Assembly (NCBI GenBank): GCA_949130485.1
Contig: OX422188.1
Span: forward strand, 3,658,222-3,722,221
Direction of reading: 5' to 3'
Source: Agelas oroides
Lineage: Eukaryota > Porifera > Demospongiae > Agelasida > Agelasidae
Length of the DNA stretch: 64,000 nt
This document shows positions 4,850 through 59,275 of this stretch, one piece after another. A program made the position numbers and the translations under genes. The notes beneath the pieces were generated by a model. That model did no database searches and had not been told where the DNA came from. It worked only from the letters and a program-made list of their open reading frames with translations. Each line of letters starts with the position of its first letter. Position 1 is the stretch's first letter.

Positions 4850-5220
4850 AGGACATTACTTTGTAAAACAATACGTACCAATTTTGCATGTAATTTTGAG
4901 GCAATGATGTGTACACTGACTGTACTGATTTTTTTTGTTAATGATGCTTAACGTTGTATTGAACCTTATTGCATATTGCTAGTATGAAAAGGTACATTCA
5001 ATCTGCTCGATACACTCAGGTAAGTATATTGAAGCCATGATACCAGATGAATTTACACATGATTTCAATAATTGACATGCTCACTAAGCTCCACTCTGCA
5101 GCATGATGGTGGGAGATTATCTTGTTATGTAAGACTACAGAGAAGCTGCATGTAGTTATCTGACAACATCAGTGTTCCTTTACCACATATGATGTCACAC
5201 GTTGACACAATAACATGATG
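4850..5220. other. Spacer between the two collagen copies
   Basis: AT-rich sequence without an ORF or repeat that I could support. It separates the pseudogene's stop region from the TATA block of the intact copy. Confidence 0.5.
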
Positions 5221-5224
5221 TAGC

Positions 5225-5232
5225 TATAAAAA
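5225..5232 (+). promoter_or_regulatory. TATA box of short-chain collagen gene
   Basis: TATAAAAA lies about 96 bp before the chosen ATG. The surrounding block (5221-5312) is duplicated upstream of the pseudogene, which supports a functional core promoter and 5'UTR. Confidence 0.55.
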
Positions 5233-5320
5233 TCACTGCACTTGTTGCTCACTGACATTCTGACAGTTGCAGTTGTCTCATATCAAACTATTCCACAGTA
5301 CTGGTGCAGGAAGAAGAAGA

Positions 5321-6471
5321 ATGCAACTGGCAAAGGTGGTGATCACCAGTGCTTTGGTCCTTGCAGCATGTACAGAAGGGCTTCCTGAAGGTAAACATTG
5401 TATTCGAAATGTGACTAATTTCTCAGATTGGATATCCAGGTTGTTATACTGAAGTTGTTTGTAGTACGATATTATCTGTCAGTCTGTTCAGTAAAGAAAA
5501 TGAAACTGAAATCAGTACAATTATATGGATAACAGTAGAGTTCGGTTGCTCAATATTATTGAGATACATGCACTAATAGACCACAAAACAGTGTGAATGC
5601 TTGTGTCTCTACTTGTACTCAGTTCATGGTATGTCTTCTCTAGAGACCACTAGTTTTTGGGAGTGCTGTTTGATGCAATGTGTGTGTTTTGAGCAATGTT
5701 ACTATACCATACTGCACACGTACTGTAGCAGGAACAGCTCTGCACAGGTCCCAGAGGAGTGCTGACACTCAGAGTGGAGGGAACAGTGTGAACACAAGCT
5801 CCTTCCCTTACATTGAGGTGTTGCGAGGACGAGATGGAAGGGATGGACGAGATGGTGTGCCTGGTCCACGTGGACCCCAAGGGCAGAAGGGAAACCAAGG
5901 AGTAGCAGGTCCCCCTGGACCAAGGAATGGTGGAGTGGTCTACACAAGGTGGGGGAAAACTAGCTGTCCAAACGTCTCAGGAACCACAACAGTGTATGCA
6001 GGGAGGGTTGGTGGAACATGGTATACACAAAAGGGAGGAGCAGCCAACTACCTCTGCATGCCTGATGATCCAGACTATCTCAGCTACCAATCTGGAGTTC
6101 AAGGACACAATTATGTGTATGGAGCAGAGTATCAGACATTTTCCGGAAGTCCCTTCTCAGCTGTTCAAGATCACAATGTCCCCTGCGCTGTGTGCTATGC
6201 TTCAACAAGGGTGGCAGTCACAATGATCCCAGCTAAAACTAGTTGTCCATCAACATGGACTCTGGAGTACTCTGGCTACCTTATGTCAGAATATCATACT
6301 CATCATCGCTCCATGTATGAGTGTGTTGACAAAAACCCAGACTCGGTGCCAGGCAGTGCTTCAAACGCTAATGGTGTTTTGTTTCACCATGTTGAAGCCA
6401 GCTGCAATGGAATGTTGTGCCCACCTTATGATCCACAGAAAGAACTCACCTGTGCTGTTTGTACCAAATAA
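5321..6471 (+). CDS. Short-chain collagen (C4-like, spongin-type), secreted
   Basis: Two-exon model, 5321-5390 and 5729-6471, 270 residues. Exon 1 encodes a signal peptide (MQLAKVVITSALVLAACTEG). The donor GTAAAC at 5391 and acceptor TGTAG at 5724-5728 join in frame (phase 1). An in-frame upstream ATG at 5267 is possible, but 5321 gives a clean signal peptide. The mature protein has a short linker, about 11 Gly-X-Y triplets (GRDGRDGRDGVPGPRGPQG and on) and a ~170-residue cysteine-containing C-terminal domain (VYAGRVGGT, YLCMPDDPDY, VYGAEYQ, MYECVD, ASCNGMLCPP). This layout is typical of sponge short-chain collagens of the spongin/exopinacoderm matrix. Family and extracellular role come from family knowledge; assembly partners are unknown. 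Confidence 0.9.
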
Positions 6472-50680: not shown

Positions 50681-50752
50681 GTCTGACAAGGTCAAGTCTC
50701 AAGATGGTCGACGGTTGCTGTGAACTTTGACCCGATACGCACGTTATTAGCC
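50681..50752. promoter_or_regulatory. UBA3 start-proximal region, boundary with KDZ element
   Basis: Only 65 bp plus the 7-bp target duplication separate the UBA3 ATG from the left end of the KDZ-type element. The natural UBA3 promoter and 5'UTR are either these bases or have been displaced into or beyond the transposon. Confidence 0.45.
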
Positions 50753-50779
50753 CACCCGCTTCGGAAACCCACTTCCACT
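50753..50779. repeat. KDZ element TIR, left
   Basis: Aligns to the inverse of 59209-59234 as CACCCG(C/G)TTCGGAAACC(C/T)A then TTCCA, with a 1-nt gap. Confidence 0.7.
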
Positions 50780-50880
50780 TTAAGTACTGTACAAATACGG
50801 AAACCTTTCCAGTTAGATGTCTGTGTGTAGGTTTTACGGTATCTCAAATTTAACCCATTCGCTGCTGTATTTTGAGCAAA

Positions 50881-53800
50881 ATGGCTTGGCGTATGAAATT
50901 GCGGCTTCCTAGCTTTAAGCTAACTCAAAGATGTACTAGAGGCGATGCAGCGAAGTGTAGCATTCCAAGAGGTCGCAAAGATGTCAAGAAGGAGGCTATG
51001 AATGATGAAGAAATGGGAAGTGAAGCTGGGCCATCTTGGGAAAGCCCACCATCGGCTATACCTTTACCAGACTTGGGAGAATTTGAGGCAGAACATGGTT
51101 CTACTCCTACTCTACATGAAGTGAAACAGGCTGCGAATGTAGCAGCCTGGGGAAATATTCGTTCTCGTCTCTTACAAGCAGCAACTGAATGTAATGCAAT
51201 GCCAGTTGATGTGTGTTGTATCGTTTGCTCTGGTACAGCGAAGTACAGGTGTATCCACTGTGGTCCACTTGCCTACTACTGCCTTTCATGTCTTGGGGAT
51301 TCACATTCCAAGGCAAATGTGTTGCATGGTCCAGAAGTTTGGGATGTAAGTCACACAAATGAGGAAATGAGGGAAGATCACCACATTTATGTAGCTGATT
51401 ACAAATGAATGGTGTCAAGAAAGCATCTATGGTGATAGAACCAACTTTACACTGTCTATTCTGTACCTTAGGAGGGTGTGTATAAACCTGTCGTGATTGA
51501 GAATGGAATAATAGATGCCAGGTCTCATCAGTGTTCAACAGTAAAGAGAGTACCCCTTTGTTGCATAGATGAATGGGGTATGTTGAATTATAGTAATACC
51601 CTTTGTTGTAGAGATGAATCAGTACCTCTGTTGCATAGATGAACTTGTCTTGCAAGCAAGACCCTTTCTGTTTCATAGTGCCAATAGCCGTCGGTATCAG
51701 CATGTGGAGGATATTGAAAGCAATTGGTGCTGTGGAAGGAAAGGGTCTAGCTTGTGAGATTATAGATGAACAATATGCTATGTTGAATCATTAAGCATGC
51801 ATGTCTCTCTTGCATGCATGTTTTGTAGGTATGGAGCACCACATTACCTTCTGCTGCTGTCAGTGTGAGCCTACACCTGTCACAATGGTCCGAGCTCGGC
51901 TTTGGCCAGCCAGCCCTCGTTTTCCCCAGCTAGCCTTCACATTTGAGTTGCTTGACTGGGCTGAAGCACTTCTTCTTGAGTGTCAGGTGGCTCTTGGAGA
52001 TTTGTGTAAAGCTCTCTACTTTAAATGCCCCCATCTAGTGAACAAGGTATTTTGTTACATCTGTATATCACAGCCATCTTTAGTGCTACTCAGGTTTGTG
52101 ATTTGCACTGGTCCTACCCCTAAAAACACTTTACTACTCATAATGGCATCTGGAAGTGTCCTCATAACTAGGACCTTGCTTGTTTTCTCCTTTTCTTTCC
52201 TACAGAGAAAGGATATCTATCCAGCAATGATTGATGCTTTTGAAGAATACAGGTATGTTATATTAATTCTGTACTGTGTGTGGTAAATTCCTCAAAGTGT
52301 CTATACAGGTACCTGAAGGTTGAGCTTCGTCACTTGGGTTATTTAAGTGGAGAGCTTGACGGTGGAAATATGTGCCCAGCTTGTCCCAAGGTATAATTTC
52401 TACCTATACGTTGCCACAGAAAGTTGCTGTTCTTGACAAATACCAAATGTGGCTCACAACCTTATGTTATAGGAAACTGGGAGCGTTGTTCTTTCCATGG
52501 ATGCTCTTTTTGGACTCCCAAGGAAAAAGTCAGCCGGACAGAGCTTCAGAAAACCCCTCCATGGGCACCTCTACTTCAGTGATCAACAGGCAGTTGATGA
52601 GTACGTGGCATGTACTCCCCAACAGAAAGCAACTGAGAAGGTATAAGCTCATTTAGGAAATACACAATGACAATGTATAACTTAGTATCATTTTTTCTAG
52701 CCATGCAGTAACTTTCTTGCTGGAGATGTTCTTAGGTCATCAAAACGGTACAAGGCTCTAGATGAGACAGCTCTGTTTGGCTGTGCCTGCAGGCATGAGT
52801 TTACCCTGATGTTCTTCAATCTCAAACACGGAGAAAAGTAACTACTAATTTGAATAGATTGGTATCAGAGACTTAAGTTCCTGCATTTACAATTACCTTT
52901 GTATAGACTCGCCTATAGTGAGTGGCTACTGCAGGAGATGATTCAATGTTACCCCTCAAGGATCACAATTTACTTGATGTATGACATTGCTTGCACTCTC
53001 ATAAAGCATCTTAAGGTAAGGTGTATAATATATCCCTCCTAATAGTGTTTGCCTAGACAACAGGTGGGGTTTAACTGCGACATTTTCCCTCCCTGAGGAC
53101 CACAAAGTGGCTCACAATCCTATTCATTACCATAGTATATAGTACGGTTTTTAGGTGCGTAAATAATGTTGCAAACGCTTGCACATGTACAGATGTGTTT
53201 ACAGTAATAACAACAAAGGACCAATCAGATGGGATATATAATAGTCATAGCACAGGTGGCCAGGGATTTATGGCTGTCAGTAAACAAACTTCATCCTTGG
53301 GCTACACCCTCAGACTTTGTCTGTTTACTGCCATAAGTTCCTGGCACTAACATGCTTAATCGATTTCATACACATTATGGATCATCATCTTTCAGAAGAC
53401 TGGCTCTGCTGAGGTCTTAGAGAGGGTACATTTTGCCTTACCATCTTTCCATGCATATGGCCACAAACCAGATTGTCAGGTAACAGTTCATAAAAGCCAA
53501 GTAATTGTTATCTTTCCTTCAGATTACTCTGAGCCCAGTTCGGTGTGCTGGTCTTGGAATGTCTGATGGGGAGGTAATGGAGCGCCTCTGGTCATATCTC
53601 AGACGCTTCTCACGCATGACCAAAGAAATGCGTCCTGCACACAGAACTGACATTCTGTGCCATGCCCTCCTTTACTATGGCTCCAAAACCAAGCAAAAGC
53701 TAGGTAATGATATGGGGATCCTAATGGGAGTTCTGAATGATCCAAGGTTTATTAACGTTGAAAGGTACACTCCTGGTACAACGTTGGAAGAGAACTGATC

Positions 53801-55066
53801 AAATGAAGATTATTGCTTCCCAGAAATATGAACAACTTGTTTCATCCCTTTCAGGTAATTGGTATGGAGTTTGTTATAATAATAGTGAGTTAGATTCAAA
53901 CATTTGCTGTTTGCTTGGTATAGTTTCTGTGACTGAAGAAACTGTCCAGCACTGGATTGAAAATGAAAAGTCAGTGATCACCAGCAAGGATGTGCACTGC
54001 CCAGTGGCAGATTGGAGAACGACATACTTTTTGATGGTCCAATCATACTTTCTCATACGGTATTACAACTATGTTACATAGTAATATAACAGGAAGTAAG
54101 ATAACCAGTGTTGGTTCTTCTTGTATAGGGACAACCTGACTGTTGGTGTGGAAGCTCAGGAAGCAGTTTCCTCCTTTGAAACATTACCCAGGTGAATCAG
54201 GGTAACAGGAGTTGGCTACACTACCAAGCAATACATAATTAATGCTGTCTCAATCCACCATAGACTTGATAACCAGCTGTCTGAGTTTGAGCAAAAGCAT
54301 GGCATTGTAGTTCGTTGGACTGCAGATGATCAACAGTATATTGATGCCAGATGCCACCATCTCAAAGAGAAGCAGCAACAATTACGATCATCACTTTGGG
54401 CTGTAATCTCCAGGAGGCACTATCTTTTGAGAATGAAGGCAAAATATGCTGGTATGACAATAGAAAGTCTATCCTAAAGTTGTGTGTTTATAATATCATG
54501 TTCTTACTTATACAGATGGGCAGAAAGTTGCAAAGAAACTCTCTAAGAACATTTCAAAGGAAACCTGTAACGTCAAGAAGCTTCTAGATGAGTATAATGC
54601 TGTGTCCTCCCAAATAGAAGTACAGTGTCCACCAGTCCCTCTAGCTGATGTCCTTTCCTCTGACTCTAAATTTTGGCAATTTCCCTCTGACAAACATGCA
54701 CCGGGGGATGTTCCTCTTCGCATTCAACAGGATATCATCGAGGCATTTCATTTAAAGAGGCGTTGCGATGAAGAGCTGCTACTCCTGAAGAATGAGATGC
54801 ATAATGTAATCAATTACTGGAATCAGAGGGAGGACTGTATCAAAAGGTTACTTCTACAGCTGACAGAAGATGACAGCCAATTTAGCAGAGGTTCACAGTG
54901 TCTCCTTAAAAAACTTTTGTGGGAAGTTGAACTGTTACGTTCAAGAGCAGCTTCAGCGTTTTCTAGTGTGATTTCACTTGCCGGATATGAAACTACAACC
55001 CCATCCTATGACACGGATTCTGAAACCTCTGATGAAGACAGTGGCAGTGACTGTGCTATATTATGA
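50881..55066 (+). CDS. KDZ-family transposase
   Basis: Fifteen exons: 50881-51345, 51472-51577, 51829-52046, 52206-52252, 52309-52390, 52473-52640, 52701-52837, 52907-53015, 53396-53479, 53523-53703, 53765-53854, 53924-54059, 54129-54191, 54264-54451, 54516-55066. All GT-AG and in frame, 874 residues. The N-terminal Cys cluster (CCIVC...CIHC...YYCLSC, residues ~110-140) and CCCQCEPTPVTMVRARLWP, LLECQVALGDLCKAL are typical of KDZ proteins. RNase-H-fold triad candidates are SMDALFG (Asp ~316), YLMYDIACTLIKHL (Asp ~435) and DGEVMERLWSYLRRFSRM (Glu ~489-492). RHEFTLMFFNLKHGE, FHAYGHKPDCQ and RWTADDQQYIDA also fit. The C-terminus is acidic (ETSDEDSGSD). The acceptor of exon 11 (GAAAG) is the weakest junction. 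A TTG start three codons upstream was rejected. Confidence 0.88.
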
Positions 55067-55503
55067 TTATACTGTGCAAGCATGCATGTCAACTGTATTG
55101 TCTTTCTACACAACTCAAGATAGTTGAGTTATGTTGCAATTGTATATGCATCATAGTAGTGTAATTAACACCTCAAACAGCAAGTAGCTAGGCCTGTGCA
55201 TGTGACAAAGGGTAAAGCATCCCAATCTGTAATCTGTACGTATCTAGTACATTAACATATAGCCCTATAACAATAATACTTGCATGATGAAGAACACCAA
55301 AAGAAACATGTAACAGATGTGTGTTCACATACACATGCAGCATATAGCACAACCATGCACCTAGTTGTGAACTACATAACTTGTGCTTGTGTAATACTTG
55401 AACTCAAAGTAACCAACTTCTCACTGACCGGTACATCCATTAGAGTACAACAGGGTGAGGATGCAGAAATGTGTACAAAGATAACAAGCAATGTTTATAA
55501 TGT
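55067..55503. other. Spacer between convergent KDZ-element genes
   Basis: AT-rich 3' region shared by both genes; holds their presumed polyadenylation signals. No ORF of note. Confidence 0.5.
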
Positions 55504-58237
55504 TCATCTGCATGAATTGCAATGCCAATCTTTGCCTTTAAGACTCTCATCCACAGCCAGTCCGATACATTCCTTCTGAAACCACTTTCTACACCTATCA
55601 CATCGTACCATTGCTTTCTGAGGGTTGTTGGGTGTGTGGCAAATGCAGTAGACTTTCAGTTTGTAAGTGTTCTTGATATGATGCCCAATGGGGATTTTCC
55701 TGGGGCGTTTAAGAGGAAAACGTTCCAGTTTCCTATTCTCTAAACACTGTAGGAAGTGTATTCGCATTACTTCTGTATCATACCGACAGAGCAGGGGATC
55801 TTTCCCAAAGGCGAGTTCTGTAGCATTCGCAACAGCAAACACACCACAGTCACACCCATTAGGCTGGGTTTGGATGTTCACCATGTTGATGGTCACATAA
55901 TCACCCTTTGGCCTCCAAAATGAACAAATTTGCATCTTTGCATCCAGATCTAAGGTGGCATAGGCACTATCGTAAACATTAATAGTATTAGCTTCACAGC
56001 CAATGTTGGAAACGGATATCCAATGTGATTTATATACATTCAATATCTGAACAAATTCTCCTTGCACTTCCTTAAATTGCTGCTTCTGCCATAGGTAAGG
56101 AGGTTGCAAACCACCTACCTGAGGAAATGCATCATGGAGTAGCTGCTGGCATCCATCAATCAATCTGCAGTTTAACCATGCACTAGACTTTAAGAGCTGC
56201 TTATCTGACTTCAAAAGGTAGGGTCTACTCATCCATTCATTGGGATCGTCTTTTAGTGGACTTGTGGAGTCAATGTTAATAACATTTTCACTGGATATGG
56301 GAGGTGGGCTAGTAGGAGTTGGAGGATTGTCAACGGATGTGGGGATGAGAGGAGGATTGTCACTGGGTGTGGGAGTGAGAGGAGGATTGTCACTGGATGT
56401 GGGAGTGAGAGGAGGATTGTCATTGGATGTGGGAGTGAGAGGAGGATTGTCACTGGATGTGGGAGTGAGAGGAGGATTGTCACTGGATGTGGGAGTGAGA
56501 GGAGGATTGTCACTGGATGTGGGAGTGAGAGGAGGATTGTCATTGGATGTGGGAGTGAGAGGAGGATTGTCACTGGATGTGGGAGTGAGAGGAGGATTGT
56601 CACTGGATGTGGGAGTGAGAGGAGGATTGTCACTGGGTGTGGAGGTAAGAGGAGGATGATTCTTGATGGAAGGATGACTGTTGGTGGGAGGTTGTCTCTT
56701 AGAAGAAGGATGGTTCTTGACAGGAGGTTTGGCGGGAGGATGATTCTTGACAGGAGGTTTGGCGGGAGGATGATTCTTGACAGGAGGTTTGGTGGAAGGA
56801 TGATTCTTGACAGGAGGTTTGGCGGGAGGATGATTCTTGACAGGAGGTTTGGTGGGAGGATGATTCTTGACAGGAGGTTTGGCGGGAGGATGATTCTTGA
56901 CAGGAGGTTTGGCGGGAGGATGATTCTTGGTGGATGTGGTGGAAGCTGGGACATTGGCTTCTGGCAGTAGAATGGGAGGATTGGCTGTAAAAGGAGGAAA
57001 AACTTTATGTAAACCACTCAAGTTGTAACATATCTGATGTCTCTAACCTGCAATGATGATTGCATGCAGATACTCCAACAGTTGTGGCGTAATGCATTTC
57101 AGCGTTGTTGATGTCCCAACCACTTGACTGAACTCCTCATAAAACCCAATGGAGAATCCTTGAAAACCAAGATCTTCAAGTTCGTTGTACTGTATGTGTA
57201 AGAGAGTTGGTAGATTTTCCTTGTAAGTTCATGCCAGAGATAGGCTACATCCTAAGGTTTAGCTATCTACTCCGAAGATTATTGGCAAGAGATTTCAGGT
57301 GTCCCAGTAGACTACTGAAAAAAGGTTTTTGGGTTTCCCAGTAGACTACTGATAACAGGTTTTTGGGTTTCCCAGTAGACTACTGAAAAAAGGTTTTTGG
57401 GTTTCCCAGTAGACCACTGAAAAAAGGTTTTTGAGTTTCCCAGTAAACTACTGAAAAAAGGTTTTTGGGTTTCCCAGTAAACTACTGAAAAAAGGTTTTT
57501 AGGTTTCCTAGTGGACTACTGAGAAAAGGTTTTTTGGTTCCTAGTAGACTACTGGAAAACTATTCCTTGTAGACTATTGGGAAAAGGCTTCTGGGTTGAC
57601 TCCTAACCTACCAGTTTCTGGATCTTCTTGAAGGCTTTTTCACCATCTTTTAGCACTTCCTTTTTTGTCATTCTCTTTACTGTATCAGTGGTGCTAGTCA
57701 CCTGACGTTTCAGCTCCTCTTTTTCTTGTATGGACATTCCTTGGTAGATTGCACTTGCCTCCTTGTTGAATGCAGCGGGGTTTTTCGCCATTGCATTCTT
57801 TCCAACTATAAATGGAGGCAAAGATAGCTATGAGAGATTGTGGATAAGTGCATGGTTATAAACATTGGCAAATATAACCGGCTAAATACCTTCACTTTGC
57901 CCGAAGTTTTTGAGATGTTGCTGCCAAGGTGTTAGTCTGACTCTCTTTCGTGGACATGCTTCATCCAGTGAGTCTTCAGCATGCCGTTTTTTCATGTTCT
58001 CTCTCCGAATCCAATTCTATATTGAAGTGTAGCATGTCAAATCATGTGAATTTTTAAATTTCTTAATACGCATACCTTAACCTGATTTTCAGTCAGACCT
58101 GTGGTTTCCATAGCTATTACAACAGCTGCAGCATGCTTTTTCCCCCAGCCAATCATCCCTCTTTCATACAATGACTTCAACGATTGTTGCAATGGCCAGT
58201 AGGGAACGGTTTCCCTGGAACTATTCTGCCGCGGCAT
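55504..58237 (-). CDS. Homeodomain-like / repeat / Ulp1-type protease / PHD protein
   Basis: Five exons (minus): 58237-58076, 58016-57890, 57805-57612, 57189-57048, 56984-55504; all GT-AG, in frame, 701 residues. Residues ~15-75 (LKSLYERGMIGWGKKHAAA, GLTENQVKNWIRRENMKKRH) resemble a homeodomain third helix and its lead-in. Residues ~225-420 are two arrays of 10-residue repeats (NHPPAKPPVK and NPPLTPTSSD). Residues ~460-620 are C48/Ulp1-like: YKSHWISVSN (His ~531), INVYDSA (Asp), QTQPNGCDCGVFAV (Gln and nucleophile Cys ~586). Residues ~655-701 are a PHD finger (YCICHTP...VRCDRCRKWFQKECIGL...WHCNSC) with Gln where the usual His ligand sits. Probable nuclear deSUMOylase-like partner of the transposase; role inferred. 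An acidic frame upstream (58371-58177) overlaps in another frame and may be a 5' exon or chance. Confidence 0.82.
56320..56650. repeat. 30-bp coding minisatellite, ~11 copies
   Basis: GGAGGATTGTCACTGGATGT / GGGAGTGAGA repeats; on the minus strand each unit encodes NPPLTPTSSD with S/N, P/S variants. Several other frames are open only because of the repeat. Confidence 0.92.
56695..56930. repeat. 30-bp coding minisatellite, ~8 copies
   Basis: GGTTTGGCGGGAGGATGATT / CTTGACAGGA repeats; minus strand encodes NHPPAKPPVK (variants T/A, S/P). Confidence 0.92.
57299..57575. repeat. 34-bp intronic minisatellite, ~8 copies
   Basis: CCCAGTAGACTACTGAAAAA / AGGTTTTTGGGTTT units with starts at 57303, 57337, 57371 and 57405 and so on, decaying toward 57575. 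Lies wholly inside intron 3 of the Ulp1/PHD gene. Confidence 0.9.
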
Positions 58238-58239
58238 TG

Positions 58240-59208
58240 CTCATTCTCTGGTTCAGACTGAGAATCCAGTGAATCTGATGGAGGACTGCTGCACCTTGAC
58301 TCATGCAAAGACTCCAGATCCTGTGCCGCATTCTCACACTCAGAATCAGAGGCCATGTCTGCAGCAATCAAGCGTATTCAGCAGATCAGAATACACGTGT
58401 TCACTTGCAGTCACTAGGGGGTTAAACAAAGCGGAAACCTACATCAGTGTAGCGATGTCGGGGTGAAAATCAAAATTCGTTTATCACAACAACAACCTTT
58501 ATTTTTGAAAAGAGCTTAAAATGGCGATTCCAACGGTACCCATATCAATGAGATTGGGTGAATACAACAAGCGGTATGGTCTTCGAAATGTAACTGGTTT
58601 GCCAAATTTTTTCTACGTCATTTTAGCGTAATATTCCGGTCACTACCTTTCCGGAAGCGACTGTAAGCCCGATCAGAATGAAATTCGCTGTGAAGGATAG
58701 TCTGTACCTATTCAGTCCAATGAAGGTTGTGGATTTTAGATATCTAGTATAATCCTTGCACTAGGCTTGATAAATGCTTAAAAAACGGCATTTTGTGGCC
58801 ATAAATAGTTGCATTTCCGGGGAAGTTGTAGCAAGGTTCCAATCAAAAACCTGTACCATCCCATTGGACAACTACTCTAGTATACAGAACTGGTTGTGCT
58901 TTCTTGAATATTGAAGTGACTGTGAGCAGCATCACAAAATGTCTTAATACTTCAACAATTTGCAGAAAAGTAGCGAGATGTGACAAAAACTTGTGTGTAG
59001 TTTTGATCGAGGCATATATTTTTAACAAAGCTGTGCAAGGAAATATGCCCAAGCCTCTAAGGAACCTCTACATCAAATTTGATGTGAATACATTAAGGCA
59101 TTGTGGAGAAATGGCCTGTGTAGAAGAATATTTACATACTTTTGGAAATTCTGACATCACTAATCAGTGCATTTGGTGTACAGGTTCTCATGTTTTACCA
59201 GTACGAGT
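58240..59208. other. KDZ element right-hand non-coding region
   Basis: About 1 kb between the accessory gene start and the right TIR. Holds an acidic minus frame (58371-58177, ASDSECENAAQDLESLHESR) and a 104-codon plus frame (58904-59218, CRKVARCDKNLCVVLIEAYI) with no recognised domain. Presumably promoter of the accessory gene. Confidence 0.4.
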
Positions 59209-59234
59209 ACTGGAATAGGTTTCCGAACCGGGTG
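59209..59234. repeat. KDZ element TIR, right
   Basis: TGGAATAGGTTTCCGAACCG then GGTG, followed by the ATTAGCC duplication. Confidence 0.7.
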
Positions 59235-59236
59235 AT

Positions 59237-59275
59237 TAGCCTCGTTCCCAGACCTCCCTTCTCTCCCGAACGCAA
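59237..59275. repeat. Fragment of the TAGCCTCGTTCCCAG MITE family
   Basis: TAGCCTCGTTCCCAGACCTC begins inside the right TSD of the KDZ element, so the KDZ insertion broke into (or next to) a member of this family. Confidence 0.5.

Follow-up and report, generated by a model that had tools for sequence, protein, structure and literature searches.

A KDZ transposon of the sponge Agelas oroides with a second, convergent gene for a putative SUMO protease bearing a PHD finger

Two convergent multi-exon genes lie between short inverted repeats at positions 50753-59234 of a 64,000-nucleotide stretch of the Agelas oroides genome (contig OX422188.1, positions 3,658,222 to 3,722,221; hereafter the window). 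Are they host genes, or do they form one mobile element whose second gene serves the transposase? The terminal inverted repeats (TIRs), located by inverted-repeat pairing and a TIR scan of the genome, are 17 bp long: CACCCGCTTCGGAAACC on the left (50753..50769, + strand) and CACCCGGTTCGGAAACC on the right (59218..59234, − strand) pair at 16 of 17 positions. The termini, CACCCG..CGGGTG, are of the CA..TG type and are flanked by a perfect 7-bp target site duplication (TSD), ATTAGCC, at 50746..50752 and 59235..59241 (TSDs, like the array and the nested insertion below, carry no strand). Both the alignable TIRs and the TSD proposed in an earlier, sequence-only reading of this locus were thus recovered, and the interval is a DNA transposon of the KDZ superfamily.

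This element is real and has been mobile very recently. In the 259 Mb of genome searched, its left end was matched by BLAST at five places, the window among them. Two of these, C11 (7,781 bp, TSD GGGAACG, 99.3% identity over the aligned bases) and C5 (7,882 bp, 98.1% identity), are end-to-end copies with exactly the end bases of the window copy, as the sequence-only reading had expected of further copies, and C8 is a truncated copy. A TIR scan tolerating two mismatches hit 25 places, fewer than the 42 of the reversed control, and places with two mismatches therefore carry little weight; the 15 places with at most one mismatch accounted for six elements, each with both ends, and for three solitary ends. 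The more distant relatives comprise C2:11.46M, C2:8.86M, C3:5.11M and a trio, C10, C14 and C21. Including the window, there are nine two-ended copies in four families, with TIRs from 17 to >80 bp; between families, the transposases are 46-55% identical, and the Ulp1-type protease and PHD finger (Ulp-PHD) of the second gene 39-55%. A perfect 7-bp TSD flanks eight of the nine copies, no two alike (ATTAGCC, GGGAACG, GCTGTGT, AATTAAT, AGCATGC, ACCCCTG, ACATACC and CAGTATG). C10, C14 and C21 are 8,912 bp each, occupy three sites and differ at one variable base in all, which indicates very recent movement of the unit. The C3 copy (TSD AGCATGC) is inserted within another repeat, and a search with its flanks joined over a single AGCATGC returned 42 matches, with 40 of the 790 candidates scored; the junction at 160 is crossed by 40 of these matches, which span from ~59 or earlier to 249-251 at 89-96% identity. 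The alignment of the joined flanks to the repeat locus L037 is likewise continuous across the target site, and together these results establish the ends and the 7-bp duplication for the C3 copy. The same kind of genome search for the insertion in the window matched only that insertion's own two flanks. A chance occurrence of TIRs and TSD is untenable, because copies exist elsewhere in the genome. The reading of two host genes caught between inverted repeats that arose by chance has the multi-exon structure in its favour and nothing else; given copies at many sites that share their ends but not their TSDs, and the empty site, its probability is vanishingly small. Both of these readings were ruled out by the genome copies and the empty site.

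The gene on the + strand (50881..55066) is predicted by the splice model and Pfam to encode a KDZ transposase of 874 aa. Its 15 exons (50881-51345, 51472-51577, 51829-52046, 52206-52252, 52309-52390, 52473-52640, 52701-52837, 52907-53015, 53396-53479, 53523-53703, 53765-53854, 53924-54059, 54129-54191, 54264-54451 and 54516-55066) are all in frame, with GT-AG introns. The nearest relative comes from another sponge, Halichondria panicea (66% identity across 90% of the queried part), and close transposases are also present in Amphimedon and Dendronephthya. Spliced alignment of an H. panicea relative recovers 18 of 24 internal exon borders; it misses the junction of exons 9 and 10, the points where exon 12 ends and exon 14 starts, and both borders of exon 13. 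Pfam identified the KDZ domain (PF18758; E=1.8e-41, 142.7 bits versus a cut-off of 26.6), preceded on its N-terminal side by the CxC2 Cys-cluster domain (E=1e-7, 32.5 bits versus 27), and no integrase in either protein of the element. D316, D434, E489 and E492 are invariant across 15 sequences; among all 31 relatives the final Glu never varies, and each of the remaining acidic residues is at least 90% conserved. These matches and residues bear out the KDZ transposase with a Cys cluster and D/D/E motifs that had been proposed from the letters of the window.

The second gene (55504..58356, − strand), hereafter the partner gene, was delimited by Pfam and copy comparison and has five exons (58356-58076, 58016-57890, 57805-57612, 57189-57048 and 56984-55504), two of whose borders were set by comparison with other families. 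In order, the protein would comprise a helix-turn-helix (HTH)-like front, a conserved middle domain, a repeat linker, a Ulp1/SENP-type protease and a PHD finger. The C48 protease domain and the C-terminal PHD finger, recognised by Pfam and a structure match, occupy 55507..56292, and the linker between middle domain and protease, made of coding 30-bp tandem repeats, occupies 56321..56929 (both − strand). An identical five-exon layout with an open frame is found in C11, C3 and C10 (729, 637 and 690 codons including the stop).

There is strong support for the partner gene as a component of the element, lying between the same TIRs and moving together with the transposase gene. A transposase search yielded 95 matches (52 of 102 candidates scored), grouped into 12 loci; an Ulp-PHD gene stands beside nine of them, convergent every time. 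A tenth locus, C2:11.86M, keeps the front part of the partner and a TIR, and C8 and C2:10.51M, both fragments, are without a partner. The front part was found at 13 loci (40 matches), the HTH and middle regions being seen only at KDZ partner loci and three fragments. The idea of one two-gene mobile unit is therefore upheld by nine of 12 loci, four families, TIRs with TSDs at eight sites, the near-identical trio and the empty site. The Ulp-PHD module is far commoner, with at least 148 matches in the genome (146 of 527 candidates scored), few of them KDZ-linked. Four loci outside KDZ elements were read (L037, L038, L048 and L049): the module is fused to an integrase-like open reading frame (ORF) in L037 and L048 and lies in the adjoining frame after one in L049. 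Pfam placed SH3_Tf2-1 below its cut-off in these three, and L048 matched a Ty3 polyprotein (E 6e-7). In a tree of 11 sequences, where the names 'MULE_L038' and 'Ginger' are working labels only, the four KDZ-linked Ulp-PHD domains fall together with the sequence P0032 on one side of a branch supported at 98/98.

For the partner protein, Peptidase_C48 (PF02902; E 1.1e-4) and PHD (E 7.8e-6) both exceeded the Pfam cut-offs, and the catalytic His, Asp, Gln and Cys of the protease are invariant in three families. A structure model of the Ulp domain, built from four sequences (mean predicted local distance difference test score, pLDDT, of 74.5), had SENP5 as its best match (E 1.7e-7), with Ulp1 also among the nearest, and a specificity for the small ubiquitin-like modifier (SUMO) is predicted from the fold only. 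The PHD finger is nearest to those of PHF2 (5.4e-11) and BPTF (1.2e-10), followed by EBS and PHF8. The PHD fingers of PHF2 and BPTF read trimethylated lysine 4 of histone H3 (H3K4me3), and, judged by similarity to such readers, that of the partner appears closest to the H3K4me3-reader type. The SUMO protease and PHD finger suggested by the sequence-only reading thus agree with Pfam, with the fold match and with the PHD relatives. When the partner genes of C11, C3 and C10, from three families, were compared, the proportion of synonymous differences (pS) was 0.80-0.94 outside the linker, i.e. synonymous sites are saturated, and that of nonsynonymous differences (pN) was 0.25-0.44 in the HTH, middle and Ulp-PHD regions and 0.45-0.59 in the linker. 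These values indicate amino-acid constraint on the partner across families. With the front part alone as query, no homologue reached E<=0.001 among 1,624 candidates, and a joined-profile search for partner homologues retained three of 7,587 candidates, which come without genomic context. P0032 (346 aa, from an ENA contig) groups with the C10 partner and has its catalytic Cys replaced by Ser.

Intron 3 of the partner gene contains a tandem array of 7.7 copies with a period of 34 bp (57298..57559). All four families (W, the window; C3; C2b; C10) have such an array in a partner-gene intron, with a period of exactly 34 bp; it lies in intron 3 in W, C3 and C2b and in intron 1 in C10; the other three arrays are at L036:7886-8401, L009:1533-1752 and L035:835-1463, and in C2b a 32-bp array adjoins the 34-bp one. 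Control DNA from elsewhere in the genome (161.5 kb) held seven arrays with a period of 25-60 and at least five copies, none with a period of 34. In shuffling comparisons, which used one consensus unit per family, unit-to-unit homology was clear for W versus C3 only (0 of 60 shuffles), the other five pairs giving 4 to 39 of 60. The score of the units against the element ends was reached by 0 (W), 2 (C3), 6 (C10) and 45 (C2b) of 60 shuffles, and in three of the four families the array contains 7-mers that are also present in the ends, C2b sharing none. This is suggestive of a resemblance between array units and element ends in W, C3 and C10.

What, then, could the partner do? The element is quite likely an autonomous two-gene cut-and-paste KDZ transposon, in which a chromatin-directed de-SUMOylase promotes transposition or counters silencing. 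The transposase would excise the element and rejoin it at target cuts staggered by 7 bp. The partner would act as the chromatin-directed de-SUMOylase: its HTH part would bring it to the transposase or to element DNA, its PHD finger would direct it to H3K4-methylated, active chromatin, and its protease may remove SUMO either from the transposase or from proteins that bring about silencing at the element. Transposition could thereby be promoted or silencing countered, as is thought for TET/JBP on fungal KDZ elements. That the partner helps the transposase is plausible. A KDZ lineage with a dedicated two-protein system, in which a DNA-targeted, histone-reading de-SUMOylase would shield the element from SUMO-dependent silencing and the 34-bp array would be an internal docking or autoregulation site, is rather unlikely.

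Several observations weigh against the de-SUMOylase transposon. On the side of the transposase, Foldseek returned no match to its model at E<=0.001 in a search swamped by helices, and at a second look unrelated helical chains scored near integrases; the C2:11.46M transposase alignment contains a stop. C5 has no TSD, so that other 7-bp duplications at copies with the same ends hold for C11 but not for C5, and it shows a 4-nt difference inside a transposase exon. On the side of the partner, three of the 13 front-part loci are without a transposase match, and the window and C2:11.46M copies have a broken frame. Exon 1 of the window gene differs by 2 nt in length from those of C11 and C5, and its first ATG is out of frame with the rest, an internal ATG still being in frame; the sequence-only view of two lesion-free multi-exon genes therefore fits the transposase, with its 15 in-frame exons, but not the window partner, which is open in C11. 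Deubiquitinases and a NEDD8 protease also match the Ulp model, with weaker scores. The front part, which had been called a homeodomain, has weak sequence support as such: of three families compared with Pfam, one gave Homeobox_KN at E 0.22 and two gave no homeodomain family, the best PDB profile match was the MAT alpha2 homeodomain at E 0.0044, and hhalign reached 91% over 28 columns. The position of homeodomain Asn51 is Arg or Lys, and the recognition helix reads W-I-x-x-x-N, not W-F-x-N-x-R.

Two other roles for the partner have to be weighed. It is possible, as a tentative alternative, that it mainly plays the part which the Myb/SANT protein has in Harbinger elements, the HTH binding the ends and recruiting the transposase, with protease and PHD finger serving the choice of targets or the stability of proteins rather than anti-silencing. 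Constraint on the HTH-like and middle domains is as strong as on the protease, three families share 7-mers between element ends and intronic array, and Nuwa families (Harbinger) pair a transposase with a Myb/SANT protein, according to PMC12730594; however, the C2b array has no such 7-mers, and the atypical recognition helix leaves any binding of the ends putative. It is improbable that the partner is a passive passenger, an Ulp-PHD module captured once from another transposon and without a role. Such a passenger would sit well with the abundance of Ulp-PHD matches outside KDZ elements, with the four non-KDZ loci that were read (two with the integrase-fused module, one with an adjoining ORF) and with the broken frames of some copies. 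Its place and orientation are nevertheless the same in four families, amino-acid constraint persists despite saturated synonymous sites, the catalytic residues are kept, and the frame is open in the family of three near-identical copies.

A nested, miniature inverted-repeat transposable element (MITE)-like insertion of 713 bp, with ends TAGCGATGTC and GACATCACTA, occupies 58450..59162 and is flanked by the TSD ATCAGTG (58443-58449 and 59163-59169). It is not present in C11 and C5 and is separate from the KDZ element; the proposed complete element therefore keeps its boundaries, but 58450-59162 is foreign. Of 367 candidate places of the MITE in the genome, 40 were scored, and identity is 98.9-100% in the 19 other copies that were read, 15 of them with a perfect 7-bp TSD, which points to a recent burst. 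Single KDZ-type TIRs without a second end were seen in the TIR scan at L046 (C5:941137) and L047 (C13:4555633); that of L046 leads into the start of a C2:11.46M-type partner gene, so truncated or deleted derivatives exist. L037, L048 and L049, with their integrase-like ORFs and Ulp1-PHD, are Ginger1-like; the L037 type has five equal-scoring places and long inverted arms, and the C3 KDZ copy is inserted in one of its relatives. L038 carries a DEAD-box helicase ORF (Pfam E 2.6e-20) a few kb from the Ulp-PHD ORF (260-811 and 5146-5973) and is possibly a further transposon type; its assignment as Mutator-like was dropped, its transposase-like pieces having no Pfam match, and it is left unclassified. 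A phage collection search gave no match.

The sequence-only reading knew of no described KDZ element with such a partner, which is too broad, since Ulp1 is reported from Zisupton and Ulp1 with PHD occurs in Ginger1; the separate, HTH-fronted convergent gene remains distinctive. Boehne, in 2012, is reported to have described the fish element Zisupton as carrying an Ulp1 SUMO-protease domain in the C-terminal part of the transposase gene. We know of no PHD or HTH partner in Zisupton and of no protease or PHD finger in the partner of PIF/Harbinger elements. No paper naming both Zisupton and Ulp1 turned up in the literature search. The KDZ transposase, the Cys cluster and the many exons are shared with Zisupton, and a Xiphophorus maculatus protein is 43% identical to the transposase over 91% of the queried part, whereas the present element has Ulp1 in its own gene on the opposite strand and a TSD of 7 bp, compared with 8 bp for Zisupton (PMC12730594). 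According to the same paper, fungal Kyakuja is a KDZ element with a 7-bp TSD, 5'-CA..TG-3' termini, no TIRs and a TET/JBP accessory gene; TSD length, termini and the possession of an epigenetic accessory gene are alike, but TIRs are present here and the accessory protein is SUMO-protease-like rather than a TET/JBP dioxygenase. PMC2836005 gives Ulp1 plus PHD as a known tail of Ginger1 (and Mutator) transposases. The same module, and integrase-type relatives, are present in the Agelas oroides genome; in contrast to that C-terminal part of an integrase-type transposase, the KDZ partner is a separate convergent gene on its own branch and without an integrase. PIF/Harbinger elements such as Nuwa resemble the present one in combining a transposase with a second DNA-binding protein, and differ in transposase superfamily, in a 3-bp TSD and in a Myb/SANT partner (PMC12730594). 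The new part is the separate, convergent, HTH-fronted and PHD-bearing Ulp1 gene, kept in four families; it was not met in the limited literature consulted, and an earlier description is possible.

Agelas oroides thus offers a well-bounded animal KDZ element, one family of which consists of three near-identical copies with both genes open in the models. A role of Ulp1-type proteases in transposition has been suggested (PMC2836005); because the partner is a separate gene that can be omitted without touching the transposase, this role becomes testable. If the shielding system were true, animals would have in it a SUMO counterpart to TET/JBP in fungal KDZ elements. The element also illustrates that a single group of transposons has recruited different epigenetic enzymes, TET/JBP in fungi and Ulp1-PHD in this sponge.

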